In this document: piece after piece, positions 649-56,786 of the stretch | Position numbering within the stretch: position 1 is the first letter of the stretch | Layout of the letters: each line of letters opens with the position of its first letter | Assembly (NCBI GenBank): GCA_902800215.1 | Contig: CADCDS010000011.1 | Coordinates: 1 to 58,297, forward strand | Origin: an uncultured Bacteroidales bacterium | Lineage (GTDB): Bacteria > Bacteroidota > Bacteroidia > Bacteroidales > Paludibacteraceae | Length of the DNA stretch: 58,297 nucleotides | Reading direction: 5' to 3' | The notes under the pieces: generated by a model | The model's database searches: none | Told to the model about the DNA's origin: nothing | The model's input: only the letters and a program-made list of their open reading frames with translations | Translations under genes and position numbers: made by a program

Positions 649-1062
649 TCATTTTACACGCTGTCTGATCGAGCGGAAGGCGATATACCCCGCTGCCAGG
701 AGCAGCATCAAGAGCCAGGGCGTGTCGCCTACAGGTGCCGAATTGGGCACTTCACCGATCGCGTTGTCATCATCACTCCAATCCCAAGGGGAAGTTCTCC
801 GAGGTCCGCTCTCTCGAAGCAACGCACTGCCGGATTCGGTATCGCCGAAGGAGTTTCTATAGACCGAAGTGGTACGGAATTGGTACGTCGGTGCGGCAGA
901 TACATAGGAAGTGGTAGCGGTGGATTGATATACGGGCTGATACCCCCAGTTCTCAGACTGCGCATTGGGGGCATATCCGTACGCGAAGGCTGCTGTATGA
1001 CACATGCCACACATCATCCAAAGCATCAGTACACACCGTATTAGAATATTCCGATTTTTCAT
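649..1062 (-). CDS. Small exported protein with a C-terminal membrane anchor
   Basis: Start chosen at 1062 (MKNRNILIRCVLML...), because a GGGAG lies just upstream and because this start gives a clean signal peptide ending AFA before YGYAPNAQ. An upstream ATG at 1086 is possible. The 137 residues form a Tyr/Ser/Thr-rich middle followed by a tripartite tail: PVGDTP, a hydrophobic stretch WLLMLLLAAGYIAF, then basic RSIRQRVK. That layout recalls sorting or anchor tails (motif, helix, positive cluster), but I know no named family for it. It follows the 3390-residue surface protein gene by 28 bases through a degenerate 8-base array, so the two are probably co-transcribed and may act together at the cell surface. 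No function can be assigned. Confidence 0.7.
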   Translation of the reverse strand: MKNRNILIRCVLMLWMMCGMCHTAAFAYGYAPNAQSENWGYQPVYQSTATTSYVSAAPTYQFRTTSVYRNSFGDTESGSALLRESGPRRTSPWDWSDDDNAIGEVPNSAPVGDTPWLLMLLLAAGYIAFRSIRQRVK

Positions 1063-1091
1063 TTTCTCATTCTCCCATTTATTCATTTCAC
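1060..1091 (-). repeat. Degenerate 8-base array at a gene junction
   Basis: On the minus strand four units end in AATG (GTGAAATG, AATAAATG, GGAGAATG, AGAAAATG). They span the stop of the giant gene and the start of the small gene, and the last ATG is the chosen start codon. Confidence 0.5.
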
Positions 1092-4000
1092 TATCGTATT
1101 TTTTGACCAAAGACGGAATATACATGTCCTTCGCGCAGTATCAGCACATGTCCGTTTTTGATAAGTTTATAGGTTACAGGTGAGGGGTTACCGGTTACGG
1201 GATCCGTGCCGGTCGCGATCGGCGGGTCAGTTACCGGCTCGGTGGGATTGTAGCCGGGCCTACGGATGAAATACCGTATCTCATGGCTCACCTCCGGCGT
1301 CTCAATAGACAGGCATATACCGTCCATGATCGGTCGTTCGGTACCGGTCAAGGCATCGTATAGCACCAATTCGCCATCTATCGCATTAACACCCGTGAAC
1401 CATAGATAGGAGACAGGATCATAGGGCAATGCGCTGTTATAGAAGGAGATAGGCACATTCACAATCGCATCCTTCAGGTCAATACTCAGACCGTTGTTAC
1501 CCTCTACGGCGTAGATATTAAACGGCGTTGTCGGAGTGGTGTTCATATTGAAGTTATCAATATTGAGGGTTGTCAATACCGCATCCTCGCCGCGAATGAT
1601 CTCATTGCTGTATCCCTGTCCGAGCAGCAGGCGTGAGATGCAACGCGGAGAAACCGGGTTAACTGCTGTGACGGTCATTATACCTTTATTAATTACCGCG
1701 CCCGCGTATGCGCGCTTGGGTGCGGGGAAAGGCGAAGGCAACGGACGGACGATGGAGTCTGCTTCGGTCACAATACGGTTGGTATTGAGGGTCACATCGA
1801 GCGTAGTAGCCGCAGCTTTACCCTTGAGTACGATCGCATGCATCGGCGGCAGATAGCGGTCCAAAGATGTTATCACGTTGTCACTCGTAAGGCCGGAGAA
1901 GGTAATGGTAGTATATTCGCCGTTGCCATTCATATAACCGATCTCCGCATCAAGGAGCGTTTTGTTGTCGGCAATGAAGCCCCATATGTCGATATATCCC
2001 AATGTCGGGTTACCGAAGACGAACTTGGAGGCAGCCGTACCGTTGGTGAGGGTATAACTCTGGCTTGTAACCAATCTGCCCGGATAGAAGGCCATCTTGC
2101 CTACGTTCTCTGCGCCCCCTGCTTTCTCCGCACGTTTGGCGCGCAGACCGGACTCGTACAGATCCCATACTTTATCTCCCGACTTGGTGTAGTAATAATA
2201 GATATCATCGCTCTTGGGCAGACGTACATCCGCGTCCCTGCCCGATGCCGTACGGGTGAAGACCGCCCATCCTTGTGCCGGCTGGAGTGGAAGCGTAAGG
2301 GCGTTGGTCACTTTCGACCAGGTAGCCGCAGCCGTTTTTACCGTATCAATCTTCTCTACGTCTTCCTGTTGGGGATTATTCAGATGGATCGCATCGCGAC
2401 TGAAAAGCGAGAGCCAGAAGGAAGCGTTACCGGTGGAATAATTACGTCCGGAGGCGTCGAACTCTCCTACTTCCCATATCGGCGTCTCTCCGCTCAGATC
2501 GGCGTTCGACATGAATAGATCGCCGGACAACAAGCCCTCTACCGGCGTTGCACGGAGTGCCCATTTGTCATAGGGCGTACTCAGGTCGGCGATCACGCTG
2601 TCGTATTCCAGACGCTGCTGCTGGCTGAGCGCTCCGCCCGGCAGGAAACGGATCGATTTGCACCTGTTATACTGGAATCCCACTTGCCGGATCGAATCCC
2701 CGGGGGCTACGGGCAAAGCCGGCAATACCGGATAAGGTCTTCCGTCCGTCATCGGCGGAATCAGCACATGGGTGGTGGACAACGGTGCGAAACGCGCTTC
2801 CTCATGGATCAGCGTATTGTGTTGGTCAATACCAATCCAGTTATCGGGGTTATTCCAACGGTTATCTGCCGTCTGCGGATCCCATCGCAGGTAATCCGGC
2901 ACAACGCTTACCGTGAACGGAATCGTTCCTACCGGACAACTGTCGCCGCCTGACGCTTTCCAGCCGGCATCACCCACGTGCGTCATCATCTCAATACCGA
3001 AGGTATAACTGTACCCCCCGCGCATACGGTAGTTCGACTCCGAAGCGGGCACAACAACCAACGTATCGTTACCGTTGGTGTAATAGCCGACATTGGTTTC
3101 ATCCAATTTCCATGTCCTGTCCGGTGCGAGCAAGATATTGTCTATACCCTCGCGGAACTCAGGATCATTGGTGGACATTAAGTGTATTTGCTTTAGCGCT
3201 ACCTCCGGAGCACCACCTCCCGGCTGCATCATCAGCGAGTCTATCGGAATATCCAATTCTTCATTCGCATGTGCTGCATCGGCAAGAACAACAATCGGGT
3301 ACTGCGACTCTTCTTCGGAGCGGTTCAGACCGCCGATGATCAACGGCACTCCGCCTCCGATGCTGGACTCAAGGGTTATATGTACCGGCGTCGGACACAC
3401 ATCGATATTCATATCCTGAAGCACTTCTGATCCCGAACCCGAAATCGGGAAGATCGTATATTTGACGGATTCATTTACCGGCGTGAGAACCGTTACGTTT
3501 GTCTGATAAAGCGTCAACAAACCTCCATTCACCAAATGCTTGAGGATGGTATAAGGCTTCAGATCGCCAGACGAGAGAGACACGCCGTTTGCTTCTTGAA
3601 CACGAGCCATCTCCACACTATCCACTTCTACCAGCGCACGGGCAAACTGGTTGGCATTATCTTCGCCTCCATACTGTCCGTCTGCGCGGAGAATATCACG
3701 GATTACTTTCTCAATATCTTCGTATTTGTAGCCGTAGGTTGTTGCACTGGTGGTTTTTGTGGTATCGCCGTGCAGCAGCCAGTCGTTGTAACACGAACCG
3801 GTCACTTCTACCGGCGCTAAGTTATCGAGGAGCACCGTTCCCTTGACATGCAGCGAGACATCGTATAAGGAATTGGAGCACATCGCTTCTACCTCTTTCT
3901 CCGGTTGCTCATCGCCGTTGAGGGTGAGGATCATTCGGTTACGCACTTTCAACTTACGCGTCAAGCCACACTGGCTTGAGAGCAAGTCATTGTATGAACC

Positions 4001-13794: not shown

Positions 13795-13848
13795 AAAAAT
13801 GAAAAATGAAAAATGAAAAATGAAAATTTTTAAAATGAAAAATGAAAT
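13795..13848. repeat. 7-base array, unit AAATGAA, intergenic
   Basis: AAAAATG is repeated four times at 13795-13826, with two more copies to 13848. It lies between the AraC-type start and its -7 element, so it forms part of the 5' leader. Confidence 0.75.
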
Positions 13849-13872: not shown

Positions 13873-13880
13873 CGAAAAAA

Positions 13881-13911
13881 AGGTGAAAGGTGAAAGGTGA
13901 AAGATGAAAGG
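13881..13911. repeat. 7-base array, unit AGGTGAA
   Basis: AGGTGAA three times, then AGATGAA and AGG. It occupies the upstream promoter region of the AraC pair. Confidence 0.75.
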
Positions 13912-14016: not shown

Positions 14017-14490
14017 ATGAAAAGAATAGGAATCATGCTATTGTTGACCCTGTGTGGGGTATGGCAAATACAGGCGGCGCTGCCGGAAGTGACGTTGCAG
14101 GACATAGACGGAAACTCGGTGCACATAGCCGGTTTGGGAAAGACCGGTCATCCGGTGATTCTCTCGTTTTTTGCGACCTGGTGCAAACCGTGCATGCAGG
14201 AGTTGGAGGCGATCAATGAGTTGTATCCGGACTGGCAGGACGAATACGGCGTGACGGTGTATGTTGTATCTACGGACCGTGCGCAGGACGCGCATAAGGT
14301 GGCACCGCTGGTAAGGGGGAACGGATGGGATTTTACGGTGCTTCTGGATCCCAACGGTACGCTGCAACGGGCGCTGAACGTGAAGAACGTGCCGCACTTG
14401 TTTGTGATCGACAGCAAAGGGGAGATTGTATATCAACATAATGCCTATTTACCCGGCGATGAAGAGAAGATACCGGGGTATCTTCATTGA
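14017..14490 (+). CDS. TlpA/ResA-like exported thioredoxin
   Basis: Start at 14017, because earlier in-frame starts would translate the promoter. The 157-residue protein has a signal peptide (MKRIGIMLLLTLCGVWQIQA) and a thioredoxin fold with the active site WCKPC (C56, C59). The cis-Pro segment is NVPHLFVID. Family members reduce or exchange disulfides of secreted proteins in the periplasm. It is the first gene of an operon with a DUF6029-like barrel and two lipoproteins that also carry C-x-x-C, which points to a joint envelope-redox role (inference). Its TGA lies at the edge of a 7-base array. Confidence 0.88.
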   Translation: MKRIGIMLLLTLCGVWQIQAALPEVTLQDIDGNSVHIAGLGKTGHPVILSFFATWCKPCMQELEAINELYPDWQDEYGVTVYVVSTDRAQDAHKVAPLVRGNGWDFTVLLDPNGTLQRALNVKNVPHLFVIDSKGEIVYQHNAYLPGDEEKIPGYLH

Positions 14491-14520
14491 AAATGAAAAA
14501 TGAAAAATGAAAAATGAAAG
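14486..14520. repeat. 7-base array, unit AAATGAA, at a gene junction
   Basis: Four full units plus partial units begin at the stop of the TlpA-like gene and fill the gap to the next start. Each unit contains an ATG in a rotating frame. Confidence 0.75.
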
Positions 14521-14528
14521 ATTAAAAA

Positions 14529-16163
14529 TTGAGATTTAGGGTTTTCATATTATTGTTGCTCATGAGCCTCAGCGTTGCGGCGAAGGACACGGTGGTGGTA
14601 CGGGGAGCGATCCAGCACGACGGACTGTTAGACTGGACGCCGGTGATGTATCATAGTAACAGTTATCTCGACCTGGGGGTGAGCTGGGTGAGGGGTGACG
14701 GGTTACCGGTTACGGGTTACGGGTTACGGGAACTACGGGCGGATACGCGGTTGGAGTTGACCCAATGGCCGCTGCCGGGATATGAGAAGGATTTCGGAGG
14801 TCACGGTATAGGTCGGTTAAGTATAGCTGCTGCGTTCACGTGGGGTGAGATCACGGTGGGCGATGTGTACGGTCAGTTCGGTTCGGGTTTGATCTTGAAC
14901 CTGTATGAAGACCGCGCGATGGGGATCGACGGTGCGCTGCGAGGCGGAAAAGTGGAGTTGAATCCGTATAAGGGTATTCGTTTCACGGCTTTGGGCGGTA
15001 AACAAAAAAGGTATTGGAGTTGTTACAAAGACCATGCCTGGGGTTGGAACTACGGTCGGGATGCGGCCTTGGGTGCAGACTTGGAGTTATCGATCGACCA
15101 ATGGAGCGAACGAATGCGGGAAAGAGAGATGGGTCTGACGATCGGCGGCAGTTGGGTGAGCAAATACGAGGCGTTTGACACGATCTTGACGCAGATAGGC
15201 GGACAGAGTTATATGTATAATCTTCCCCGTTGGGTTGGTGCCGGAGACATCCGGGCACAGTTGCGGGTGAAAGGGTTTGAGTTATTAGTCGAATATGCAC
15301 GAAAAGCGAATGACCCGTGTACGGAGAACGGTTTTGATTACCGCCCGGGTCAGGCATACTTGGCGAGTGCGGGTTACAGTCGAAAGGGTCTGTCGGTGTT
15401 AGTACAAGCCAAATACACGGACAACATGTCTTTTCGTTCGGAGCGGCAACGGACCGGTATCGCCGGACGGTTAAATCACTTACCGGCGTTTACGCAGCAA
15501 CATACCTACGCTTTGGCGGCGTTGTATCCGTATGCGACGAACTACAGCGATAAGGAGTTGGCGGTGCAAGGCGAGATCCGTTACACGGCACCGAGGAAGA
15601 GTAAGATGGGCGGTAAGTACGGCACGACGCTGACGTTAACGGGTAGTCATGTGCGGTTGGTAGGCAGCGAGCCGAGAAAGGGCGAGGCGTACACGGACAT
15701 CCATCTGGCGATGCATAAGCGGCTGAGTAAGAACTGGTGGCTGAACGCGATGGTGATGTATCAGGCGTACAACGAGTTGTTTGTGGAAGGTCACGGTGGC
15801 ATGATGCGGTCGGGTATCGCGGTAGTGGACGCCCGGGTGCAGGTGAATCCCAACATCTCGATGCGGGGTGAGATCCAATACCTGTATTCGCCTCATCACG
15901 AAGGACAATGGTGCTTTGCGCTGTATGAGTTGAATCTGTACCAACACTGGTCCCTGAGCGGACAATGGATGTACAATATCGGTTACGCACCGGACGCGAC
16001 GAATGCACATTATTACACGGCAGGGCTGACGTTCACTTACGGAGCTCACCGCGCCAATATAGGCTATACGAAGACACGGGAAGGGTTTAACTGTTCCGGC
16101 GGTGTTTGTAGATATGTACCACAGATGAAAGGCGTATGCGTGAACTATTCGTTCACTTTTTAA
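14529..16163 (+). CDS. DUF6029-like outer-membrane beta-barrel protein
   Basis: The 544-residue protein has a signal peptide (MRFRVFILLLLMSLSVAA) and alternating strands throughout, ending in an aromatic residue (VNYSFTF), as outer-membrane barrels do. The conserved block near residues 95-150 (GDVYGQFGSGLILNLYEDRA) matches what I recall of DUF6029 proteins of Bacteroidales. The start is TTG: an in-frame TAA lies two codons upstream and the first downstream ATG would remove the signal peptide. Residues about 53-67 are encoded by a 7-base array (14686-14730). It lies between a TlpA-like and an Omp28-like gene. The substrate or role of the barrel is unknown. Confidence 0.75.
   Translation: MRFRVFILLLLMSLSVAAKDTVVVRGAIQHDGLLDWTPVMYHSNSYLDLGVSWVRGDGLPVTGYGLRELRADTRLELTQWPLPGYEKDFGGHGIGRLSIAAAFTWGEITVGDVYGQFGSGLILNLYEDRAMGIDGALRGGKVELNPYKGIRFTALGGKQKRYWSCYKDHAWGWNYGRDAALGADLELSIDQWSERMREREMGLTIGGSWVSKYEAFDTILTQIGGQSYMYNLPRWVGAGDIRAQLRVKGFELLVEYARKANDPCTENGFDYRPGQAYLASAGYSRKGLSVLVQAKYTDNMSFRSERQRTGIAGRLNHLPAFTQQHTYALAALYPYATNYSDKELAVQGEIRYTAPRKSKMGGKYGTTLTLTGSHVRLVGSEPRKGEAYTDIHLAMHKRLSKNWWLNAMVMYQAYNELFVEGHGGMMRSGIAVVDARVQVNPNISMRGEIQYLYSPHHEGQWCFALYELNLYQHWSLSGQWMYNIGYAPDATNAHYYTAGLTFTYGAHRANIGYTKTREGFNCSGGVCRYVPQMKGVCVNYSFTF
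14686..14730. repeat. 7-base array, unit GGGTTAC, inside a barrel gene
   Basis: Units GGGTGAG, GGGTGAC, GGGTTAC, CGGTTAC, GGGTTAC, GGGTTAC, then GGG: six units, 42 bases, 14 codons in frame. Confidence 0.85.
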
Positions 16164-16190
16164 TGAAAAATGAAAAATGAAAAATGAAAA
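16162..16190. repeat. 7-base array, unit AAATGAA, carrying a start codon
   Basis: Four ATGAAAA units fill the 20 bases between the TAA of the barrel gene and the next gene. The last ATG (16184) is that gene's start. Confidence 0.75.
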
Positions 16191-16888
16191 ATTTTTTATA
16201 CATAGTATTGGCGGCGCTGGGGTTAGCAGGCTGTGAGGTGATCGGGCCGGAGGATCAGTTGATTCCGGTGGAGGACGTGACGGGAGGGCGGAAGCATGTG
16301 CTGATCGAGTTCACGGGTTTCCGTTGCGTGAACTGTCCGACGGCGGCTGAGTTGGCGCAGGACCTGGAAGCGATGTACAAGGGTCGGTTAATCGTGGTAT
16401 CACTCCACCCTGCTTCGAACCCGTTTACGCAAGGCAAATACGACTACACCTGTGCCGCAGCGGATAGTATATACCAATGGATGGGTGGCGATGCCTCCAC
16501 ATCGTTCCCGGCAGGAAACGTGGACTGCAAGCCGTTCGAAGGGGAGTGGTTTAATGACATGAGTGCCTGGCCGACGATGGTGTATGAGGCGATGCAGGAC
16601 AAGGAGGAAACGCAAAACGAGATACCGTTGGAGACGGTATATTGGTTGATAGAAGACAGTGTACCGGGAGCACAAGCGATGCCGGACGGAACGGTGAACA
16701 GCCATTATTACCACCGGCATGTGCTGCGCGACGTGAAAGGGAGCATCTCCCAACTGGAGGAGAAAGCGGGTTATAACCCGGAGCAGTTGTATATTTTGAC
16801 GATCTATCAAAACCCACAAGACAAATCAATTTATCATGCATATGAAGAGAAATATCTGGATATTTTTAGGACTTTTTTGGACGATTAA
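16184..16888 (+). CDS. Omp28-like thioredoxin-fold lipoprotein
   Basis: A 234-residue protein with a lipoprotein signal (MKNFLYIVLAALGLAGC, lipid Cys17) and a thioredoxin-like segment VLIEFTGFRCVNCPTA with C48 and C51 as a C-x-x-C pair. The spacing IEFTG-x-x-C-x-x-C-P is typical of Omp28-related outer-membrane proteins. It is probably a lipid-anchored redox or adhesin-type protein of the outer membrane. The 3' end overlaps the next gene by 47 bases. The paralogue at 17375 suggests duplication within the operon. Confidence 0.78.
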   Translation: MKNFLYIVLAALGLAGCEVIGPEDQLIPVEDVTGGRKHVLIEFTGFRCVNCPTAAELAQDLEAMYKGRLIVVSLHPASNPFTQGKYDYTCAAADSIYQWMGGDASTSFPAGNVDCKPFEGEWFNDMSAWPTMVYEAMQDKEETQNEIPLETVYWLIEDSVPGAQAMPDGTVNSHYYHRHVLRDVKGSISQLEEKAGYNPEQLYILTIYQNPQDKSIYHAYEEKYLDIFRTFLDD

Positions 16889-17378
16889 TGCGCAGGCGCT
16901 GACCGTGAACATTGACGGCAAAGGAGAAATTCCGGCAGGCGGGATGGAGTTGACGATCAACGAAGCGGAGGAAGACATCCTATCCGGCGAGATGACGATG
17001 AAGTTAGAAGGTACGTTAGTGTGCGAGAATGCGCTGACGGTGACGATTCACCGTTCTGCTACGGAATTGGCGGATGAGTTCTGCTGCGCCGGTCTGTGTA
17101 AGGCAGGAAACGAGGAGTTGGAAGAGACCCTGCAATTTACGCCTAACGGCGAGGCATCTTGGTTCATCCATTATACGCCCGAAGCAGGATCGAAAGAGAC
17201 GATGACCTACACCTTCAGCGACGGTCAAGAGAGTCGGACGCTGACGGTGGTGTTTGATTATTCCCTTCAAGGAATCGAAACGGTTAGCGGTGAGCGGTTA
17301 GAGGTTAGCGGACAGAAAATCTTGCGTGGCGGGATCATTTATATTATTAAGGACAATAAAACATATACGATACAATGA
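16842..17378 (+). CDS. Small secreted protein with a Bacteroidales C-terminal tail
   Basis: A 178-residue protein. Start at 16842 gives a signal peptide MKRNIWIFLGLFWTINAQA; an ATG six bases earlier is also possible. The body contains clustered cysteines (FCCAGLC near residues 80-86), unusual in an exported protein and in keeping with the redox neighbours. The C-terminus KILRGGIIYIIKDNKTYTIQ resembles the end of the giant surface protein at 1091 and may be an export or anchoring tail. A 7-base array encodes the stretch just before it (17281-17311). It overlaps both neighbours (47 bases upstream, 4 downstream). Function unknown. Confidence 0.7.
   Translation: MKRNIWIFLGLFWTINAQALTVNIDGKGEIPAGGMELTINEAEEDILSGEMTMKLEGTLVCENALTVTIHRSATELADEFCCAGLCKAGNEELEETLQFTPNGEASWFIHYTPEAGSKETMTYTFSDGQESRTLTVVFDYSLQGIETVSGERLEVSGQKILRGGIIYIIKDNKTYTIQ
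17281..17311. repeat. 7-base array, unit CGGTTAG, just before a C-terminal tail
   Basis: Units CGGTTAG, CGGTGAG, CGGTTAG, AGGTTAG, CGG. As in the giant gene (1171-1201), the array lies directly ahead of the tail codons. Confidence 0.75.
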
Positions 17379-18247
17379 AATTCAAATTTCAAGTTTCAAA
17401 TTCCAAATTTCAAATTTTTGATTTCAAATTTTTGATTTTGGCTGCTTTGGCAGCTATGTGTTTCACGGGTTGTGAGCCGAATGAACCGGAACGACCGATT
17501 CTGGATTCGTATCCGAGGAAACATCTGATTGAAGAGTTCACGGGTCAGGACTGCGGTTATTGTCCGTATGGCATGGATTGTATTCATAGTTTCATGGAAA
17601 ACGACTCGAACTTCATATTGATCCTGCACCATTACGGTTATAAGAAAGATCATTTCTCGGTAGCCGGTAGCAAGACGATCACCAATGCGTTGAACGTGGA
17701 CGGAGCGCCGAGTGTAGCCATTGACCGTGCGAAAGTCAATTACGGTAGCGGTAAAGGGGTGGTCTTCTATCCGGGTTATCTGGAAGCGACGAAGAAATCG
17801 CAGTTCGACACGGCGACCTATGCGTCTATCTTCATCACCAATGAGTATAAGGCAAGCAGCAGGAAATTAACGATCAAGGTGTCGGGTGAGATCTCGGAAC
17901 CGTGGGCGGAGGACCTGCACTTGACGGTGCTGGTTAAAGAGTCCGGCATGATCGATTACCAAGCGGACTACTATGAGACCAAAAACGGATGGAAGGAGTT
18001 CTGTCACGCCAATGCGGTGCGTGCTTTCTTAACCGATCCGAAGGGAGACGAGATGGACGTGAGAGAGCGTCGGTACAAAGAAAAATACACCATCGAGTTG
18101 GATGAAAGCTGGGTGCCGGAGAACTGTATGGTGGTAGCCTTCATCACGGAAGGTTTCCAACCGGTAGTGCAAGCAGAGCAAGCGCCGGTGATCGCCGGTA
18201 CGTCCGGTGGAGCGGATATCGAACACGGAGGAATAACAAAGAGATAA
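17375..18247 (+). CDS. Omp28-like thioredoxin-fold lipoprotein, paralogue
   Basis: A 290-residue protein starting with ATG overlapping the upstream TGA (ATGA). The N-terminus MKFKFQVSNSKFQIFDFKF is encoded by a 7-base array and precedes the hydrophobic LILAALAAMCFTGC. Cys33 is the likely lipid site, though Phe at -3 is unusual. The redox segment HLIEEFTGQDCGYCPYG carries C60 and C63. The C-terminal half (residues 150-280) looks like a beta-rich domain. The signal peptide n-region is far longer than usual and repetitive, which I read as array expansion into a signal peptide. dnaE follows after 3 bases. Confidence 0.78.
   Translation: MKFKFQVSNSKFQIFDFKFLILAALAAMCFTGCEPNEPERPILDSYPRKHLIEEFTGQDCGYCPYGMDCIHSFMENDSNFILILHHYGYKKDHFSVAGSKTITNALNVDGAPSVAIDRAKVNYGSGKGVVFYPGYLEATKKSQFDTATYASIFITNEYKASSRKLTIKVSGEISEPWAEDLHLTVLVKESGMIDYQADYYETKNGWKEFCHANAVRAFLTDPKGDEMDVRERRYKEKYTIELDESWVPENCMVVAFITEGFQPVVQAEQAPVIAGTSGGADIEHGGITKR
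17378..17440. repeat. 7-base array, unit AATTTCA, encoding a signal peptide n-region
   Basis: Nine consecutive 7-base units (AAATTCA, AATTTCA, AGTTTCA, AATTCCA, AATTTCA, AATTTTT, GATTTCA, AATTTTT, GATTTTG): 63 bases, 21 codons, starting in the codon after ATG. Confidence 0.85.
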
Positions 18248-22054: not shown

Positions 22055-23307
22055 TGACTTATAGCGAAGCGATAGCATATCTGTATGCGTCAAGGCCACC
22101 GTTTCACATAGTCGGAGCCGCAGCGTACAAGCCGGGGTTGGAGAAGACCCTGCAGTTACTGGCAGAGGTAGGTGATCCGCATCGGACGTTCCAAGCGATC
22201 CATGTAGCCGGCACGAACGGAAAGGGTTCGACGAGTCACCTGATAGCCGCTGCCTTGCAGGCATCGGGACGCAAAGTAGGACTTTTCACAAGTCCCCATT
22301 TAGTGAGTCTGACCGAACGGATACGGGTGAACGGTGCACCGATACCGGAAGAAGTGGTAGCCGCTTTTGTGACGGAACACAAGGACTTTTTGGACGCTGT
22401 GCAGCCTTCGTTCTTCGAGACGATGACGATGTTGGGTTTCTGGTGGTTCGCTCACGAGAAAGTAGATATCGCCGTGGTGGAAGTGGGTTTAGGCGGTCGG
22501 TTAGACAGCACAAACGTGCTGACACCCATCCTATCCGTGATCACGAATATCGGTCTCGACCATACAGAGTTCTTAGGCAACACGCTGACGCAAATCGCCA
22601 AGGAGAAAGCCGGCATCATCAAACCGCATGTTCCGGTGGTGATCGGGGAAAGTCATCCGCAGACGATGAATGTGTTTCTGAGTAAAGCGCAGGAATGCGA
22701 TGCTGAAATCTATTTTGCCGACCAATGTGAGTACTTACGCCGCACGAGACTGAAGGTAGCACCGGAATGTGAACTGAAGGGTAACTATCAGGAACATAAT
22801 CTACAGACGGCGTTTGTGGCGCTGAGAGCATTAATTCAAAATTCAAAATTCAAAATTCAAAATTCCGAGATAGCCGAGGGTTTTGCGAAAGTAAGTACGA
22901 TGACAGGTCTGCGCGGTAGATGGGAGACCTTGTCAAATCGACCGTTAGTGATCTGTGACACGGGTCATAACAGTCATGGCATTCAGTACGTAGCGCGGCA
23001 GCTGAAGGAGTTGCCGAATCCCAACATCTGGATCGTCTTTGGCATGGTGAATGACAAGGACACGGATGTCGTGATGCGTCTGTTGCCGAAGGAGGCAAAG
23101 TATCATTATATCTTCACGAGGCCCGATACCCAACGGGCACGCACAGCGGAGGAAATGTTGGCGCTGTGGGGTAAGGAAGGTATGGCGATGGAAAATCCGG
23201 AAGAAGCCATCCGTTATGCGGAGCAGCACGCTTCGGAAGAGGATGCGATTTTTATCGGAGGATCTAATTATTTAGTAGGGTATGCGTTATCACGTTTTAC
23301 ACATTGA
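22054..23307 (+). CDS. folC: Folylpolyglutamate synthase / dihydrofolate synthase
   Basis: 417 residues from the ATG at 22054 (a TTG one codon earlier is less likely). Mur-ligase fold with P-loop GTNGKGST near residues 51-58 and the folate-type segment FTSPHLVSLTERIRVNG. The C-terminal domain includes CDTGHNSHG. It adds glutamate to dihydropteroate or folates. The start overlaps dnaE's stop (TGATG), indicating translational coupling. An insertion NSKFKIQNS near residue 265 is encoded by a 7-base array in a linker that is variable in the family. Confidence 0.94.
   Translation: MTYSEAIAYLYASRPPFHIVGAAAYKPGLEKTLQLLAEVGDPHRTFQAIHVAGTNGKGSTSHLIAAALQASGRKVGLFTSPHLVSLTERIRVNGAPIPEEVVAAFVTEHKDFLDAVQPSFFETMTMLGFWWFAHEKVDIAVVEVGLGGRLDSTNVLTPILSVITNIGLDHTEFLGNTLTQIAKEKAGIIKPHVPVVIGESHPQTMNVFLSKAQECDAEIYFADQCEYLRRTRLKVAPECELKGNYQEHNLQTAFVALRALIQNSKFKIQNSEIAEGFAKVSTMTGLRGRWETLSNRPLVICDTGHNSHGIQYVARQLKELPNPNIWIVFGMVNDKDTDVVMRLLPKEAKYHYIFTRPDTQRARTAEEMLALWGKEGMAMENPEEAIRYAEQHASEEDAIFIGGSNYLVGYALSRFTH
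22833..22866. repeat. 7-base array, unit AATTCAA, inside folC
   Basis: Four perfect AATTCAA units and a partial one. The encoded peptide repeats with a 7-residue period (NSKFKIQ NS). Confidence 0.85.
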
Positions 23308-24055
23308 AACTCATTTTGCCGAGGAATGGCAACGCGATGTGTTTGACCAACAGATCGGTGAGTTAGGAGTGGACACCATCGACGGGCAGGATTATTATAT
23401 TCCGTCCGAAATTCTTGAAGTCCAAATCTCCAATATCCAATCTCAAATATCCAATACTCCGGGTGCCACCCTTCTGGGTATCGATGCTTGTCCGGATGAG
23501 AACTGGAATGCAACTTGGGAAGCGGAACATCCGGTGATGGAGTTACCCTTAGGTATCACGATTGTGCCCCATTGTGCCTTCGGTGCCGGACATCATGAGA
23601 CGACGTCAATGATGATCGAGAACCTGATGCAGGCGGATTTGAAGAACAAGACGGTGCTCGACCACGGTACCGGAACGGGTGTACTGGCGATCTTCGCTAA
23701 ACGGTTAGGAGCAAGTGAGGTAATAGCCGTTGACATTGATGAGAAGAGTGTGGAGAATGCGAAAGAGAATGCGGCTCTCAATAACGAAGAAATTGAGGTG
23801 CTTTTAGGTGATACCGTTCCGAAAGGTACCTACGATCTTATCCTCGCTAACATACACCGAAATATTCTTTTGGCGAATATGACCGCTTATGCCACCCACC
23901 TCAATGAAAACGGTGAGCTATGGTTAAGCGGATTTTACGAGTCCGACGTGCCTATCTTACAAGCCGCTGCAGAACAAGAAGGTCTCACCCTCATTGACGT
24001 CCTTGCGAACGGCGAATGGAGGTGGATGAGATGTCGAAAAGCGGTGCGTCTTTGA
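23282..24055 (+). CDS. prmA: Ribosomal protein L11 methyltransferase
   Basis: 257 residues. Class I SAM fold with motif I LDHGTGTGVLAIFA, acidic VIAVDID, and the catalytic-loop motif LILANIHRN. PrmA trimethylates L11. The start overlaps folC by 26 bases. The N-terminal domain contains QISNIQSQISN encoded by a 7-base array (23421-23462). The C-terminus overlaps the convergent nadD by 65 bases. Confidence 0.92.
   Translation: MRYHVLHIETHFAEEWQRDVFDQQIGELGVDTIDGQDYYIPSEILEVQISNIQSQISNTPGATLLGIDACPDENWNATWEAEHPVMELPLGITIVPHCAFGAGHHETTSMMIENLMQADLKNKTVLDHGTGTGVLAIFAKRLGASEVIAVDIDEKSVENAKENAALNNEEIEVLLGDTVPKGTYDLILANIHRNILLANMTAYATHLNENGELWLSGFYESDVPILQAAAEQEGLTLIDVLANGEWRWMRCRKAVRL
23421..23462. 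repeat. 7-base array, unit ATCCAAT, inside prmA
   Basis: Units TCCAAAT, CTCCAAT, ATCCAAT, CTCAAAT, ATCCAAT, ACTCCGG: 42 bases, 14 codons. Encodes QISNIQS QISN. Confidence 0.8.
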
Positions 24056-24518: not shown

Positions 24519-24537
24519 TAGCTATTAGCTGTTAGCA
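24513..24537. repeat. 7-base array, unit TAGCTAT, spanning the gmk-nadD junction
   Basis: TAGCCAT, TAGCTAT, TAGCTGT, TAGC. On the minus strand it supplies the stop TAA of gmk and the start ATG of nadD. Confidence 0.75.
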
Positions 24538-25079: not shown

Positions 25080-25082
25080 AAC

Positions 25083-25114
25083 AATTTAACGGTTTAACAG
25101 TTTAACGCTTAAAG
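25083..25114. repeat. 8-base array, unit RRTTTAAC, between yicC and gmk
   Basis: AATTTAAC, GGTTTAAC, AGTTTAAC, then GCTTAAAG. It covers most of the intergenic gap and reaches the end of yicC. Confidence 0.75.
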
Positions 25115-34420: not shown

Positions 34421-34519
34421 TCACCTCCTTATCGCCACCTGGTCTCCACCTGGTTTCAATGGATGCTCAATGGATGCTGAAAGGGTGCTCAATGGATGCT
34501 CAAACCTTGCTTCATCCAT
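34421..34519 (-). CDS. Possible 32-residue small ORF over the 11-base array
   Basis: ATG at 34519 preceded by GAAGGGTGACA, stop TGA at 34421. The product begins MDEARFEHPLSTLS and contains EHPL twice because the 11-base units recur every 33 bases in the same frame. A promoter with perfect spacing (34591-34621) points at it. There is no homologue I recognise, and the frame may be a by-product of the repeat. Confidence 0.2.
   Translation of the reverse strand: MDEARFEHPLSTLSASIEHPLKPGGDQVAIRR
34435..34511. repeat. 11-base array, seven units
   Basis: CCACCTGGTCT, CCACCTGGTTT, CAATGGATGCT twice, GAAAGGGTGCT, CAATGGATGCT, CAAACCTTGCT: 77 bases in perfect 11-base phase with two sub-families. The array is the main content of the 424-base spacer 34294-34717, together with three promoters. 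Confidence 0.85.
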
Positions 34520-34689: not shown

Positions 34690-34702
34690 CAGTCGCAAAA
34701 GT
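34683..34702. promoter_or_regulatory. Perfect palindrome over the ArsG-like gene's transcription start
   Basis: ACTTTTGC-AGTC-GCAAAAGT, identical arms to the site at 34300-34319. The RNA would begin inside the palindrome. Confidence 0.6.
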
Positions 34703-34717
34703 GAAAACAGAGAAAAA

Positions 34718-35455: not shown

Positions 35456-36131
35456 ACAATTTTCCATACAAGATGACCGCTGTGCGATGAAAGTCGGCAC
35501 AGATGGGGTTTTATTAGGATGTTGGGCGCCAAAAGGCAGCCGTATTTTGGACATCGGTACAGGAAGCGGATTAATTGCGCGTATGTTAATGCAGCGTTGT
35601 CCGGAAGCAGAAGTAGAAGGCATCGATATCGATGCCGCAGCCGTAGAACAAGCGAAAGAAAACGGAGTATGTGCCTATTGTTCCTCGTTGCAGGATTGGA
35701 AAAATGACCAATCACAAATCACCAATCACAAATACGATTTAATCGTCTCCAACCCACCCTATTTTCAGAACAGTCTGAAGAATCCCGATAAGGGACGGCA
35801 GGCAGCGCGGCATACAGATACGCTTTCCTACGAGGAACTGATTGCACACAGTGTCCGGTTATTGACAGAAGATGGATGCTTAGCGTTAATCCTACCGGCG
35901 GAAGCCGAAGCAGAGATCCGGCAGTTGGCGGGTGCCGCAGGACTATACCTCACGCACATTACGCGCGTATATAGTAAGGAGACAAAGCCGGTGAGAAGGG
36001 TAATGATGGCTTTTTCTCGGGATAACGGGATAACGGGATACCGGGATACCGAAGATGTCTTGGTTTTAGAAGACGAAAAAGGAGGCCGAAGCCTCCCTTA
36101 TCAAAATCTTGCGAAAGATTTTTACCTATAA
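35439..36131 (+). CDS. trmN6: tRNA1(Val) (adenine-37-N6)-methyltransferase family
   Basis: 230 residues from the ATG at 35439 (MSFRFKQFSIQDDRCAMKVG). Class I SAM fold with RILDIGTGSGLIARML, acidic VEGIDIDA, and the adenine-N6 motif SNPPYF. Family members (YfiC) methylate A37 of tRNA1Val. Two arrays lie inside: a 7-base array encoding NDQSQITNHK ahead of the NPPY strand, and an 8-base array near the C-terminus encoding RDNGITGYRDTED. The stop codon lies within a 7-base array shared with the convergent rny. Confidence 0.87.
   Translation: MSFRFKQFSIQDDRCAMKVGTDGVLLGCWAPKGSRILDIGTGSGLIARMLMQRCPEAEVEGIDIDAAAVEQAKENGVCAYCSSLQDWKNDQSQITNHKYDLIVSNPPYFQNSLKNPDKGRQAARHTDTLSYEELIAHSVRLLTEDGCLALILPAEAEAEIRQLAGAAGLYLTHITRVYSKETKPVRRVMMAFSRDNGITGYRDTEDVLVLEDEKGGRSLPYQNLAKDFYL
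35706..35733. repeat. 7-base array, unit CACAAAT, inside the methyltransferase
   Basis: GACCAAT, CACAAAT, CACCAAT, CACAAAT. Lies in the variable loop between motif III and SNPPYF. Confidence 0.8.
36018..36049. repeat. 8-base array, unit CGGGATAM, inside the methyltransferase
   Basis: CGGGATAA twice, CGGGATAC twice, then CGAAGATG. Encodes part of a C-terminal beta-hairpin region. Confidence 0.8.
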
Positions 36132-36158
36132 CCTTTCACCTATAACCTATCACCTTTA
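36124..36158. repeat. 7-base array spanning two convergent stop codons
   Basis: ACCTATA, ACCTTTC, ACCTATA, ACCTATC, ACCTTTA: 35 bases. It contains the TAA of the methyltransferase (36129-36131) and the TAA of rny (36156-36158), and fills the entire gap. Confidence 0.8.
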
Positions 36159-43639: not shown

Positions 43640-44267
43640 TTTGATTGTTCTGTCGGGCGGTTTGGACTCCACGACCATGTTGTATGAGTATCAAGACCGC
43701 ATTGCTTTGGCGGTTTCCTTCCATTATGGTTCGAACCATAATGACAAAGAGATTGCTTTTGCTCAACTGCATTGCAAGCGATTGGATATACCCCATATGA
43801 CGATCCGTCTGCCGTTCATCAAGGAGTTTTTTAAATCGTCCTTATTGGAAGGCGCTGATGCGATTCCGGAAGGGAACTACGATGAAGAGAATATGAAATC
43901 GACGGTGGTGCCGTTCCGCAACGGGATCATGCTATCGATAGCTGCCGGTATAGCAGAGAATAACAAGTTACAATTCGTGATGTTAGCGAACCATGCCGGA
44001 GACCATACCATCTATCCCGACTGCCGACCTGCGTTTGTGGATGCGATGAGCAATGCTATGCAAGCCGGTACATGGAACGGTGTGCAGTTGTTGACACCCT
44101 ATACGAATATTACCAAGACGGATATCGTTCGGCACGGTATAAAGTTAGGTATCAACTACGATGAGACCTGGTCTTGTTACAAAGGAGGAGATACACCCTG
44201 CGGTGTATGCGGTACGTGCAGGGAAAGGGAAGAAGCCCTGCACGATGCCGGCTACTACGAGCGTTAA
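43629..44267 (+). CDS. queC: 7-cyano-7-deazaguanine synthase
   Basis: 212 residues. PP-loop SGGLDSTT at 9-16. Zinc-site cysteines near the C-terminus lie in [15 protein letters not shown]. It converts CDG to preQ0 using ATP and ammonia. Its stop codon lies in the first unit of an 8-base array. Confidence 0.95.
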
Positions 44268-44300
44268 ATTGTTAAATGGTTAAAACGTTAAATTGTTAGG
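44263..44300. repeat. 8-base array, unit GTTAAATT, between queC and queD
   Basis: GTTAAATT, GTTAAATG, GTTAAAAC, GTTAAATT, GTTAGG. It starts with the queC stop and ends at the queD ATG. The reverse complement is RRTTTAAC-like, the same family as 25083-25114. Confidence 0.82.
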
Positions 44301-44633
44301 ATGTACTACGTACAAAAGACTATAGAGATTTCGGCAGCGCATAACTTAACATTAAGTTATGAGAGTAAGTGTGAGAACCTGCATGGTCATAACTGGATCA
44401 TTGTGGTGTATTGCAGAGCAAAGGAGTTGAACCAAGACGGGATGGTGACTGATTTCACCCACATTAAGAAAGTGGTGAAAGACACGTTTGACCATAAGTA
44501 TATCAATGAGATCATGGATGTTAATCCGTCCGCTGAGAACATCGCCAAATGGATCTGCGACCATGTAGAAAACTGCTATAAGGTCTCCGTTCAGGAATCC
44601 GAAGGAAACGTCGCTATCTACGAGCGCGACTAA
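44301..44633 (+). CDS. queD: 6-carboxy-tetrahydropterin synthase
   Basis: 110 residues. Zinc ligands H14, H28 and H30 (SAAHNLT, CENLHGHNW) and catalytic C24 are visible, with DHKYIN further on. It makes 6-carboxytetrahydropterin from dihydroneopterin triphosphate. Confidence 0.94.
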   Translation: MYYVQKTIEISAAHNLTLSYESKCENLHGHNWIIVVYCRAKELNQDGMVTDFTHIKKVVKDTFDHKYINEIMDVNPSAENIAKWICDHVENCYKVSVQESEGNVAIYERD

Positions 44634-44656
44634 AGGCTAATGGCTAAAGGCCAATG
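44630..44656. repeat. 7-base array, unit CTAAAGG, spanning the queD-queE junction
   Basis: CTAAAGG, CTAATGG, CTAAAGG, CCAATG. It contains the TAA of queD and the ATG of queE (44654). Confidence 0.8.
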
Positions 44657-45277
44657 TACAAAGTAAACGAAATATTCTTTACCCTTCAAGGTGAGGGAGC
44701 ACACAGCGGGATTCCTGCTGTGTTTGTTCGTTTCAGCGGTTGTAATCTCAAATGTCCGTGGTGTGACACAGAGTTTTCGGAATATACCGAGATGCGTGCA
44801 GAGGATATCGTGAAGGAGATGCTTACGCTGTACGATACACCCAATGAACGCAGGAAGATGTGCGTGTTGACAGGCGGTGAACCGAGTCTACAGGTGGATG
44901 AAGCGCTAATAGATGCCTTACACGAAGCAGGATTCTATATCTGCATCGAGACGAATGGTACCCGTGCGTTGCCGCAGGGCATCGACTGGATCACGTGTTC
45001 ACCGAAAGAAGGCACCAAATTGGCATTGAAAAAGGCCAATGAGGTGAAAGTAGTGTTTACCAACACGTACAATCCGGAAGTTTGGCGCACAAAAATAGAG
45101 GCTGAGCATTGGATGCTTCAACCTCTACGGTATAACGGCGAATGGTTATTGATGAGCGGTATCGATGATTTCGAGATCGATAGTAACGATAATCTCGACG
45201 ACACGGTTCGCTATATTCTCTCCCACCCTTTCTGGCGTCTGAGTGTACAATTACACAAGATCGCCGGACTCCGTTAA
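44654..45277 (+). CDS. queE: 7-carboxy-7-deazaguanine synthase (radical SAM)
   Basis: 207 residues. Iron-sulfur Cys C30, C34 and C37 lie in SGCNLKCPWCDTEF, with N-terminal TLQGEGAHSG and TGGEPSLQ. It makes CDG from carboxytetrahydropterin. Last gene of the que set; folE, the first pathway step, is not in the window. It ends 4 bases before a convergent lipoprotein gene with no obvious terminator between. Confidence 0.95.
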   Translation: MYKVNEIFFTLQGEGAHSGIPAVFVRFSGCNLKCPWCDTEFSEYTEMRAEDIVKEMLTLYDTPNERRKMCVLTGGEPSLQVDEALIDALHEAGFYICIETNGTRALPQGIDWITCSPKEGTKLALKKANEVKVVFTNTYNPEVWRTKIEAEHWMLQPLRYNGEWLLMSGIDDFEIDSNDNLDDTVRYILSHPFWRLSVQLHKIAGLR

Positions 45278-47945: not shown

Positions 47946-47974
47946 TATTTACGATTTAACGATTTACGATTTAT
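47946..47974. repeat. Mixed 7/8-base array between pdxJ and exbB
   Basis: TATTTAC, GATTTAAC, GATTTAC, GATTTAT. It fills the gap and reaches the pdxJ stop. Confidence 0.65.
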
Positions 47975-48828: not shown

Positions 48829-49722
48829 ATGACAATAGCTGTTTTTGGAAATGCGATGAAGTCCGATACCTTACGGGAAGTAAGGCATATTTTGGAGTTT
48901 ATGTCCACTCAGGGCGTTCATGTGATCTTGTCGCATGAATTGCGTCAGGAGTTGGATCTGCGCGAATATCCGGTTTTCAACGACGGGTTTATCAACGAAG
49001 AAGGAGCCAAGCAGTCAAACGATGAACCGGTGGACTTTGCGTTATCGGTAGGTGGTGACGGAACGTTCCTCACGAGCGCCGCAGCGATAGGCAGAAAGAA
49101 CATACCTATTTTGGGTATCAACTGCGGTCATCTGGGTTTTCTGGCGGAAGTGCAGGCAGAGGATGTAGATGGGATATTACAAAAACTGGTAGCCGGCGAA
49201 TACACCATTGAGCAGCGCAGTCTGTTGGCGTTGAGCGTGTTTGACAAAGAGGGCAATAAACGCGACGGACTGATCATGGCGCCGAATGCGTTGAACGAGA
49301 TAGCGATTCTCAAGGAAGGTTTGAGTAGTATGTTGCAGATCGAGTTGAAGGTGAACGGAGAGTTGCTGCACACCTACCATTCCGACGGTTTGGTTATTGC
49401 CACGCCGACGGGAAGTACGGCGTATAACCTGTCGATCGGTGGACCGCTGATGGTGCCGCAGAGTCGGGGTATCATCTTAACACCTATTGCACCGCACAGC
49501 CTGACTGTCAAGCCCTTAGTAGTGCCGGACGACTGGAAGTTCGACCTCAAAGTAAGCAGCCGTTACGATGCATTCATGGTGTCGGTGGACGGCAGAAGTC
49601 AGAGTTTGAGTACCGACACCAGTCTGCATATCGAACGTGCGCCGTACACCGTCAAAGTGGTGCAGATCGGCGATAACAGTTTTCTGAAAAGTCTGAGAGC
49701 CAAACTCAATTGGGGAAAATAA
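48829..49722 (+). CDS. nadK: NAD kinase
   Basis: 297 residues from the ATG at 48829. GGDGTFL at 75-81, the NE motif in [10 protein letters not shown], and the nucleotide-site [15 protein letters not shown] are present. It phosphorylates NAD to NADP. Its TAA is followed directly by a 7-base array leading into lgt. Confidence 0.96.
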
Positions 49723-49755
49723 ATCACAAATCATAAATCAAAAATCATAAATGTT
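49721..49755. repeat. 7-base array, unit AAATCAT, between nadK and lgt
   Basis: AAATCAC, AAATCAT, AAATCAA, AAATCAT, AAATGTT. It begins at the nadK stop, and the last unit holds the lgt ATG (49751). Confidence 0.85.
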
Positions 49756-52122: not shown

Positions 52123-53256
52123 CAGTTCCCGGAACTGTATCTTGGCATGCGTATCCCCATTCATGACCACAGACGAGTCGTAACGGGGGTGTAACATCAG
52201 CCGCGCAGACATGAAGCGGTTGATGATAAAATCGCAGTTTACTTCCAGATCTATCTCCACGTGGTGATAGTTGGTGTAGAAATAGAATTTTGACTCCAGC
52301 GACACTTCACGAACGGGTTTCCATGTATATTCAACACGAACAGACGAACCGATATTATGCTGGGTTCGTTGTCCTTCATCCAGTCCGTATTCCGTCACCG
52401 TCACACGTGCCGTATCGGCCACATGAATCACCTTGTAGGACACCGGAGAAACGGAGATAGACAGGTCTTTGACGGGCTTATAATCAATACCGAATGCGGC
52501 ATTAAAACGGAAGGGCGAGAACGGTGCTGACTTCAGTTCCATTGAGTTGGATTTGAACGTCGGCAGCAGGCGTGTCTCAATTTCCGCAGAAATAGAAGTA
52601 AAGACCTTAGGAACGATCCTCAGGTTCGCTTTGGAGTAGATCCGGAAGAGGTCATCGGTGGTGTTGATCTTATGCAGACTATCCGCCGAGACAGTAGAAC
52701 CGCCCATACGCCATTCGCCGGTGTTCTCCCAGGTGAAACGATCAGTGATATAACTGACTTGTCCTTTAGCGATACCGAGTGCCGCAAAAGAGGATGAACC
52801 GCCTTGGTACCAGTTGGGCGTAACATAGTTCTGGGTGATCTGCAACATCAGTGTCGCTTCCCGTCTCCACGGCGACTTCATCTCCCGAATGGCACGTAAC
52901 ACATCGTTCCGGTCTTCTTCCGCATCCTTGATCCAGGATTTCTCGACGGTGATGGCCGGCATCTTCTCGATCTTCTGCAAGGCCAACGAGGCATTAACGG
53001 TGCGTAACGAATCGATCTCACGCAGTTCCCGAGCAATCGAATCCAACCGCATCATCTCCGCTGCTACCATGACGGAATCCAGCGAATCGGCCGCTAACTT
53101 TTCCATCGTCTGCGCCGAAACGATATCCAGCAGGTAAGCATCCGACTCCACGGCTTCGTTCTGTTCCGCCAGTTTGAAGGTGTCGGTATATAGTTGTTGC
53201 GCTGCCAGATGAGTGACAGCGCAAACAACGAATAATATCAGAAGTCTAAATCTCAA
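52090..53256 (-). CDS. DUF3078-family outer-membrane protein
   Basis: 388 residues. Signal peptide MRFRLLILFVVCAVTHLAA, then an extra helical region (about 20-110) before the barrel. The DUF3078 hallmark appears as TPNWYQGGSSSFAALG. The last strand ends GFAHKFH. The start is TTG, because an in-frame TGA lies two codons upstream; the same TTG-AGA-TTT start occurs at 14529. It follows secA by 25 bases through a 7-base array. Confidence 0.8.
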   Translation of the reverse strand: MRFRLLILFVVCAVTHLAAQQLYTDTFKLAEQNEAVESDAYLLDIVSAQTMEKLAADSLDSVMVAAEMMRLDSIARELREIDSLRTVNASLALQKIEKMPAITVEKSWIKDAEEDRNDVLRAIREMKSPWRREATLMLQITQNYVTPNWYQGGSSSFAALGIAKGQVSYITDRFTWENTGEWRMGGSTVSADSLHKINTTDDLFRIYSKANLRIVPKVFTSISAEIETRLLPTFKSNSMELKSAPFSPFRFNAAFGIDYKPVKDLSISVSPVSYKVIHVADTARVTVTEYGLDEGQRTQHNIGSSVRVEYTWKPVREVSLESKFYFYTNYHHVEIDLEVNCDFIINRFMSARLMLHPRYDSSVVMNGDTHAKIQFRELLSIGFAHKFH

Positions 53257-53280
53257 ATTTCAAATTTCCAATATCCAATG
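53251..53280. repeat. 7-base array, unit TTTCAAA/TATCCAA, between secA and the DUF3078 gene
   Basis: TCTCAAA, TTTCAAA, TTTCCAA, TATCCAA. It ends next to the secA stop and overlaps the TTG start of the DUF3078 gene. Confidence 0.75.
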
Positions 53281-56649: not shown

Positions 56650-56680
56650 CAAAATTACAAAAAAAAATCCATATATGCAA
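56650..56680 (-). promoter_or_regulatory. Promoter of secA
   Basis: On the minus strand TTG (56678-56680, extended TTGCATATAT), 20-base spacer, TAATTTTG (56650-56657). Confidence 0.8.
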
Positions 56681-56742
56681 GAACAAAATGCATGCCACGT
56701 CATTTTTCCTGTCATTTTGGCATATTTTCACCTGACATGATC

Positions 56743-56786
56743 GGTCCAATCCCGATCCATTCCCGGTCCATTCCCGATGCATTATC
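56743..56786. repeat. 11-base array, four units
   Basis: GGTCCAATCCC, GATCCATTCCC, GGTCCATTCCC, GATGCATTATC. It lies upstream of the secA promoter in the 331-base spacer 56618-56948. Confidence 0.8.

Follow-up and report, generated by a model that had tools for sequence, protein, structure and literature searches.

The 58,297-nucleotide contig CADCDS010000011.1 (positions 1 to 58,297, forward strand; assembly GCA_902800215.1), from an uncultured Bacteroidales bacterium of the Paludibacteraceae, carries a family of imperfect tandem arrays in which units of 7, 8 or 11 bases are present in about four copies. This whole stretch is called the window below. The arrays lie both between and inside genes, as an earlier note on this DNA had described. 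Tandem Repeats Finder, reporting loci of about three copies or more, places 19 period-7, 3 period-8 and 2 period-11 loci in the window, 24 in total, and a separate autocorrelation scan gives 18, 3 and 3 segments at these periods, with none in five Markov-1 shuffles. The family is real, if slightly smaller than the roughly 27 arrays first claimed; the two 11-mer arrays agree with Tandem Repeats Finder, while the supposed five 8-mer arrays come down to three. The interpretation to which we give about an even chance is that these arrays are products of a lineage-enriched process at the DNA level, in which bursts of duplication are followed by loss or word replacement, and survival is decided by selection.

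The arrays are described here with the strand, where one is given, that is G-rich. In the left part of the window, an AraC-type regulator and a ResA-like gene diverge from a gap that holds two 7-mer arrays: AAAAATG (13795..13847, +), which the relative L001 also has at a changed length, and AAAGGTG (13879..13911, +), which is kept in the relative genome G041. The 7-mer array AAAATGA (14490..14530, +) fills the gap from a stop at 14490 to the next open reading frame (ORF), which begins at 14529, and is shorter by 13 bases in L001. Within that ORF (14529-16163) lies the 7-mer array GGGTTAC (14686..14730, +), with no array at the orthologous L001 site; AATGAAA (7-mer; 16162..16192, +), between the stop at 16163 and an Omp28-type gene, is likewise absent from L001. 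Two further sites hold different arrays in that relative. Near the end of ORF 16836-17378, where the window has the 7-mer CGGTTAG (17281..17311, +), L001 has a TCAGCAT array instead, and at the start of an Omp28-type gene (17375-18247), the 7/14-mer array TTCAAAT (17378..17439, −) has as its counterpart an 8-mer TCATTTTC array.

A second group occupies housekeeping genes and the junctions between them. The 7-mers AATTCAA (22833..22865, −), AATCTCC/AATATCC (23425..23456, −) and AATCTTC (24074..24115, −) lie within folC, prmA and nadD, respectively, and the units of the latter two are kept in G041. The junction of nadD with the guanylate kinase gene holds the 7-mer TTAGCTA (24511..24536), present in G041 as a longer array of the same unit, and the 8-mer TTTAACGG (25079..25106), its unit also kept in G041, fills the gap between guanylate kinase and a YicC-type gene. 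Two 7-mer arrays are found within mnmE. AATGTCC (26355..26388, −) keeps its unit in G041, and TAGCTCT (26283..26315) is represented there by an ACCCTTC-type array instead; the MnmE proteins of the two genomes are 95% identical, yet the peptide of the latter array-coded segment differs.

Further along, the 11-mer TCAATGGATGC (34456..34503, +) lies in a divergent intergenic region, and its unit recurs at L119:5504-5547. A TrmN-type ORF (35397-36131) includes the 7-mer AATCACC (35703..35733, −) and the 8-mer CGGGATAA (36018..36051, +), and the 7-mer ACCTATA (36124..36155, −) lies between this ORF and the convergent RNase Y gene. The 8-mer GTTAAATT (44263..44298, +) separates queC from queD, and the 7-mer CTAAAGG (44630..44665, +) separates queD from queE. 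The remaining arrays are the 7-mer ATTTACG (47947..47973; from Tandem Repeats Finder), between a TolQ-type gene and pdxJ; the 7-mer ATAAATC (49719..49752, −), which takes up all the space between the NAD kinase stop and the start of lgt; the 7-mer AAATTTC (53248..53279, −), which adjoins secA; and the 11-mer TCCATTCCCGA (56742..56783, −), in the divergent region upstream of secA.

The window's genome is an assembly about 85% complete in 30 contigs (1.96 Mb), of which 850,178 bases (43%) were sampled. A sample of 458,297 bases contains 92 arrays of period 7, 26 of period 8, 11 of period 11 and 7 of period 9, with at most 8 at any other period from 1 to 24; shuffles of these 458 kb give at most 0.6 at any period and at most 0.4 at periods 7, 8 and 11. 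The counts in the full sample are 170, 52, 25 and 19 for periods 7, 8, 11 and 9, corresponding to 20 period-7 arrays per 100 kb and, by extrapolation from the 170, to some hundreds of arrays in the genome. One 50-kb stretch of E. coli, the sole control from outside the order, yielded a single period-6 array and none other. The earlier note had proposed comparing unit lengths with shuffled sequence and other Bacteroidales, and the excess at 7, 8 and 11 appears in both comparisons.

The vocabulary is diverse. The 92 arrays draw on 43 different canonical 7-mers, of which a few are frequent, so a single dominant unit of the kind described for TAACTGA in Beggiatoaceae is not found. Words nevertheless recur, identical units making up 3.5% of pairs among 170 arrays as compared with 0.24% when letters are shuffled inside units. 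When rotated or flipped to a common phase, the 7-mers converge on A-W-W-G-G-H-K with 4.77 bits of information (3.18 ± 0.04 in ten controls with permuted units), and the 8-mers on approximately T-W-T-R-A-C-R-N with 6.02 bits (3.62 in the control); the 11-mers reach just 4.78 bits, compared with 4.16. The loose motif NATTNGN suggested at first was thus roughly right, and this phase-locked consensus takes its place. Runs of GGG, as in G-quadruplex heptamers, are restricted to AACCCGT (9 arrays) and AACCCAT (2) among the 22 commonest units of the 92 arrays. The genus relatives use other words than the window's genome: the consensus RRNKAWN is not enriched in the 296 period-7 arrays described below (112 versus 109 expected), and GGNKAWN is enriched twofold (32 versus 16).

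Array length is constrained as well. In a length survey at a looser threshold, 99 of 198 period-7 arrays measure 30–35 bases, with a mode near 31–33 that is common to genic and intergenic arrays; the median is 34 for 8-mer arrays and 42, with a broad spread, for 11-mer arrays. Simulated 7-mer arrays of 21 and 24 bases are detected in 78% and 88% of cases. Since the detector already finds most arrays of this size, the shortage of short arrays is real. Memoryless growth would produce a distribution decaying from the shortest lengths, unlike the observed mode. Within arrays, adjacent units resemble each other most: across 442 arrays from the window's genome, G041 and the named relatives, mean differences rise from 1.00 at lag 1 to 2.02 at lag 5. 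This gradient lies above that of a star model, in which copies mutate independently, passed through the same detector, and below that of a pure copy chain. Only 25 of the 442 arrays with at least four units are perfect, which sets them apart from repeats of the Borg type, whose units are described as perfect.

Genes were called with a home-made caller that misses some, such as the TrmN-type ORF with its 7-mer and 8-mer arrays, and the genic counts are therefore lower bounds. Wholly inside called genes are 99 of the 170 7-mer arrays, 7 of 52 8-mer arrays and none of 25 11-mer arrays. Because 88% of the sample is called as coding, 7-mer density per base is still about five times higher outside genes. 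Periods 3, 6, 9 and 12 are genic in 34 of 48 cases; these multiples of three lead by genic share, while 7-mers dominate by genic number. With 99 of 170 arrays within called genes, the location just upstream of start codons known for TAACTGA repeats does not hold here. Inside genes, 7-mer arrays occur on either strand and in each of the three codon phases, and the G-rich strand is the coding strand in 48 of 96, so that there is no orientation with respect to transcription. The arrays originate at the DNA level and are then filtered by the reading frame; an origin as peptide repeats was rejected because of the use of all codon phases and both strands. In the intergenic set, counted by hand from the list, 25 of 73 arrays either overlap or come within 16 bases of each of the two flanking genes.

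The orientation of the arrays follows a different variable. Pairs of arrays agree in their G-rich strand in 60 of 70 cases when less than 1 kb apart, in 91 of 162 at 10–20 kb and in 160 of 384 at 20–50 kb, and agreement persists when the arrays lie at oppositely transcribed genes less than 5 kb apart (55 of 68 pairs). The G-rich strand tracks GC skew at third codon positions, corrected for gene direction (Spearman 0.45, 65 bins), and none of 64 circular shifts gives a correlation as high. These patterns, based on skew rather than replication direction, suggest that the process, like replication, is linked to the DNA strand. A single rule for a whole replichore was rejected, since in contigs C1 and C2 the sign switches at intervals of tens of kb, leaving only a local, skew-linked rule.

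Named relatives were examined solely around dnaE; the closest belong to uncultured Bacteroidales and Paludibacteraceae, and many were assembled from ruminant-gut metagenomes. At least one period-7 array occurs in 66 of 80 named dnaE-centred loci, which together hold 296 period-7, 49 period-8 and 47 period-11 arrays. The genus comprises 178 species genomes, and eight of its members (718 kb, 32–100 kb each) hold 55, 25 and 26 arrays of period 7, 8 and 11, the period-7 density ranging from 0 (in 32 kb) to 19 per 100 kb. The outgroup sample, six of 16 listed genomes from other families of the order (20–100 kb each, 396 kb in total), has 1, 0 and 1.

Searches with perfect triple units gave a less exclusive picture. 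ATTGGAG is found as a triple in 30 of the 178 genus genomes and in one of 393 genomes drawn from the order, which is the window's own; GGGTTAC occurs in 24 of 178, and its mirror gave no match in the same genus search. The mirror control for ATTGGAG, (GAGGTTA)x3, matches nearly as many genus genomes as ATTGGAG itself. The mirrored unit itself belongs to this vocabulary; ATTGGAG therefore has no special place in the genus, and the control is not neutral. The order-wide search also found (GAGGTTA)x3 in four genomes from three other families, and heptamer arrays are thus not confined to this genus. One genome of another family (G367) has twelve such matches and perhaps represents a second heptamer-rich lineage in the order.

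Alignment of orthologous loci, which the earlier note had recommended, reveals units kept, units differing or arrays absent, with copy number mostly unchanged. The comparisons are pairwise, and presence versus absence at a site may be gain or loss alike. The window's genome and G041 share 91.8% DNA identity over 10 kb. Counting only sites with both flanks matched, 20 of 40 arrays keep their unit in G041, 12 have another unit of equal period, one has another period and 7 have no array. On inspection, one of the 13 swaps (C1 105521) is really the same array and another (C1 93207) is weak, leaving 11–12; at least one of the seven sites scored as empty (C2 57359) seems to hold an array of a different word. 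As a control, 3,000 random positions were drawn, 509 non-array sites had matched flanks and 8 of these show an array (3 of period 7). In examples with flanks of 91–97% identity, ATTGGAG stands opposite GGGTTAC and AAAGTTG opposite ATATTGG, both at equal length, and AGTCGAA opposite TCAGCCA; at position 17381 of the window, a 7-mer array corresponds to an 8-mer array in a relative (flanks 83–88%). The length difference between the two genomes is a multiple of three at 21 of 21 genic sites and at 11 of 19 intergenic sites.

The same behavior is seen in 14 close pairs (88–97% identity), which were counted in one direction, share some genomes and so are not independent; three of them yielded no site. 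Among their 91 sites, the unit is kept at 54 and differs at 19; one site has another period and 17 have no array, although at least two of the 19 hold the same array on inspection (one being L027/L037 at L027:14242). Length is unchanged in 41 of the 54 unit-keeping arrays; the other 13 differ, some by 7, 8 or 14 bases. Copy number variation between close relatives, the hallmark of phase-variable repeats, is therefore not the prevailing pattern. In one pair (L034/L035 near 3030, 96% identity), one word is replaced by another unit by unit.

Within an essential enzyme, DnaE, a loop near residues 160–170 carries heptamer arrays in 5 of 110 loci searched. Three words are used: a TCAGCCG type (L021 and L054), an AAAGGCG type (L045 and L049) and GGGTTAC (L047), and the aligned stretch varies from 93 bases, a length also found in two outgroup loci, up to 228.

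The preferred reading, that of duplication bursts followed by replacement or loss under selection, would proceed as follows. Strand-biased local duplications in tandem, in bursts with units of 7, 8 or 11 bases, would arise during replication or repair synthesis, probably through misalignment or template switching, each unit being largely copied, with errors, from the adjoining one. A 7-mer or 8-mer burst would stop at about 30–35 bases, with 11-mers longer and more spread. Mismatch repair could clear small loops and leave those of 7–11 bases; MutS, which in general removes small loops, is present. Sites would be set by tolerance rather than by a target sequence, and arrays would survive selection in intergenic gaps, or in protein loops where the frame is kept and no stop is made. 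Once finished, an array would behave as a fairly stable sequence rather than a hypervariable microsatellite, until a later event deletes it or swaps in another word. Local bursts are favored by the likeness of adjacent units, by a unit order that is near chance between arrays and by the unit-by-unit displacement in L034/L035. Of the lineage-specific copying or slippage of fixed-length units originally proposed, a lineage-enriched, fixed-length process stands, and simple slippage does not, given the 41 of 54 unit-conserved arrays of unchanged length and the wholly different units at other sites.

Several observations weigh against this reading. The length mode, the mostly unchanged copy number (41/54) and the motif common to the arrays are not those of ordinary slippage. 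The 8-mers (7/52) and 11-mers (0/25) avoid genes far more than the 7-mers do, and 21 of the 25 11-mers have a stop-free strand, so stop codons do not explain the avoidance; one process may not cover all three classes alike. Unrelated palindromic inserts at array sites, described below, could indicate insertion rather than expansion. No gene causing the process was found among the candidates considered, reverse transcriptase (RVT_1), Ku and Y-family polymerase. RVT_1 and Ku were not found in the window's genome, an absence that is weak evidence at 85% completeness, and 35 of the 178 genus genomes have RVT_1. The Y-family polymerase (IMS) was rejected because it is present in 26 of 31 genomes, outgroups included.

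The length mode, the common motif and the gene avoidance of 8-mers and 11-mers leave room for a dedicated activity. A telomerase-like, retron-like or other template-repeating polymerase with few templates, adding some 32 bases each time at a DNA break or gap, would account for the recurrence of words across loci (3.5% versus 0.24%), the mode near 31–33, the different words at one site in close relatives and the phase-locked motif. The absence of RVT_1 from the 85%-complete genome and its presence in just 35 of 178, the lack of Ku, the neighbor-copy gradient inside arrays and the many words per genome (43 units in 92 arrays) make such an enzyme unlikely. In a bolder and, in our view, quite unlikely version, a novel active system would draw short words from a vocabulary particular to each species, write a word four to five times in a row as a patch of about 32 bases wherever the genome tolerates it, essential-protein loops included, and later overwrite the patch with a different word. 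If true, new loop peptides and spacers would be generated continually.

Maintenance of the arrays by selection as functional binding sites on DNA or RNA would fit the common motif, the location of 8-mers mostly and 11-mers wholly outside called genes, and the 25 of 73 intergenic arrays set tightly against both neighboring genes. This explanation is improbable in view of the 99 of 170 7-mer arrays that are genic, on either strand (48 of 96 with the G-rich strand coding), and of the close relative in which 13 of 40 sites carry another unit and 7 of 40 none.

Copying of whole arrays from other arrays by ectopic recombination, as small mobile cassettes, could produce different words at conserved sites. 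It also agrees with the 18 of 73 array pairs less than 1 kb apart that share at least 6 of their 7 unit bases, compared with about 11% between contigs, and with a slight excess of exact matches of at least 24 bases (24 of 170 arrays versus 18 expected in the window's genome, 8 of 82 versus 4 in G041). However, arrays with shuffled unit order match other arrays nearly as well as the real ones (18.0 versus 18.0 bases in the window's genome; 16.5 real versus 15.7 shuffled in G041). Array-to-array copying thus has little support, unit order matching other arrays little above chance, and we consider cassettes distinctly improbable. Hardly better placed are ordinary phase-variable simple sequence repeats (SSRs), which would gain and lose single units by slippage and act as on/off switches. 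The tandem structure and the 13 of 54 unit-keeping arrays of different length are what they would produce, but 41 of 54 are unchanged in pairs of 88–97% identity, genic differences are multiples of three in 21 of 21 cases, and the hosts are housekeeping genes (mnmE, nadD and folC, and dnaE in relatives). Plain SSR slippage as a sufficient cause was rejected on account of the mostly unchanged lengths and the different units at orthologous sites. That the arrays are metagenome-assembly artefacts, or a by-product of repeats in proteins, is scarcely credible, since, even though the relatives are uncultured, many being titled as metagenome-assembled genomes, and the window's genome is about 85% complete in 30 contigs, a period-7 array occurs in 66 of 80 separately assembled named loci, length modulo 3 is kept at 21 of 21 matched genic sites and all codon phases are used.

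Similar repeats are known elsewhere. The short tandemly repeated repetitive (STRR) heptamers of heterocystous cyanobacteria, with unit families of the CCCCAGT type, occupy many loci, and variable STRR lie in loops of rnpB. The likeness drawn earlier to cyanobacterial heptanucleotide repeats holds as one of style (7-base units, many loci, gene loops).

Long simple sequence repeats (LSSR; Mrazek 2007, as described in PMC4679880) have units of 5–11 bases, 7 being commonest, and a sporadic taxonomic spread; slippage was suggested as their origin, with 7 bases as the polymerase contact length, and units divisible by three are likeliest in coding regions. The arrays of the window's genome belong to this class in being 5–11-base repeats beyond chance with 7 commonest, and in their sporadic spread. 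They are unlike LSSR in peaking also at 8 and 11, with a length mode and a common motif, in changing word at fixed sites between close relatives and in the 99 of 170 7-mers that are genic. TAACTGA heptamer arrays, dispersed and sometimes within ORFs like ours, were reported in Beggiatoaceae, cyanobacteria and five Bacteroidetes (MacGregor 2015, PMC4679880), and the claim that no such repeats were described for Bacteroidales has to be narrowed accordingly. Those repeats lie mostly just upstream of start codons, and a role as binding sites was proposed; they have one conserved unit, with related heptamers rarely or never repeated, whereas our arrays have many units, both genic and intergenic.

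Heptamer arrays across whole chromosomes, as here, are also known for GGGAATC in Xanthomonas and GGGGAYT in Nostoc (Rehm 2015, PMC4692102). A further likeness is that repeats of prominent length in two related xanthomonads are not at the same genes. Those heptamers form G-quadruplexes and, in the two xanthomonads, are 89–93% intergenic, without preference for the leading or lagging strand. By contrast, most of our units lack a GGG run; their G-rich strand follows local skew, which may be a difference in strand preference. Borg tandem repeats (PMC9879509) resemble ours in forming many independent, fast-evolving arrays, genic and intergenic, that give new peptide segments; they differ in that their units are described as perfect and their genic unit lengths as all divisible by three, while ours are imperfect and of 7 bases even in genes (99 genic arrays).

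Overall, the arrays resemble known bacterial heptanucleotide repeats, which dominate 5–11-base repeats in scattered bacteria; what looks new is the large vocabulary, how often arrays lie in genes and the substitution of one word for another at fixed sites. Among the matches listed in our literature search, which included few subscription papers, no title or abstract opening concerned such arrays in Paludibacteraceae or rumen Bacteroidales, and unit replacement at conserved sites was likewise undescribed in them. With 178 species genomes in the genus, orthologous sites can be compared for array presence, absence and word change. Such comparison treats word, unit length and site as separate, independent variables, speaks against plain microsatellite slippage and reveals repeat DNA becoming loop peptide in essential enzymes (DnaE and MnmE) without a break of frame.

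Other small repeats share these places. Array sites of one relative are occupied in another by an imperfect palindrome (AACCCTTCC..GGAAGGGAG) or by GACCGCTTCGCTCAAAGA elements, the sites being L025:14754, L026, L027, L037:13789 and, in the window's genome, C2 141761 as seen in G041. Palindromes and elements together would make up another small-repeat class that uses the tolerated places of the arrays. The dnaE genes of L004, L011 and L042, and of L030, L040 and L046, encode the loop with LPSREGL or PxPEGK-type peptides, which suggests a separate peptide-coding palindromic insert that we liken to the Rickettsia palindromic elements.

Three features of the window lie outside the array family. 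The divergent regions at 34298-34359 and 34589-34712 have 26 identical bases in common in inverted orientation (TTTTGCGACTGCAAAAGTAC, next to a TACTTTTG box). Of the 49 matches that window positions 23000-37000 have in G041, these regions supply more than 30; they resemble a recurrent Bacteroidetes promoter and leader element. A 3390-residue ORF at 1091-11263 (−) has no Pfam match at E 1e-4. The 1343-residue protein encoded at 28208-32239 (−) matches the IgGFc-binding domain family PF17517.

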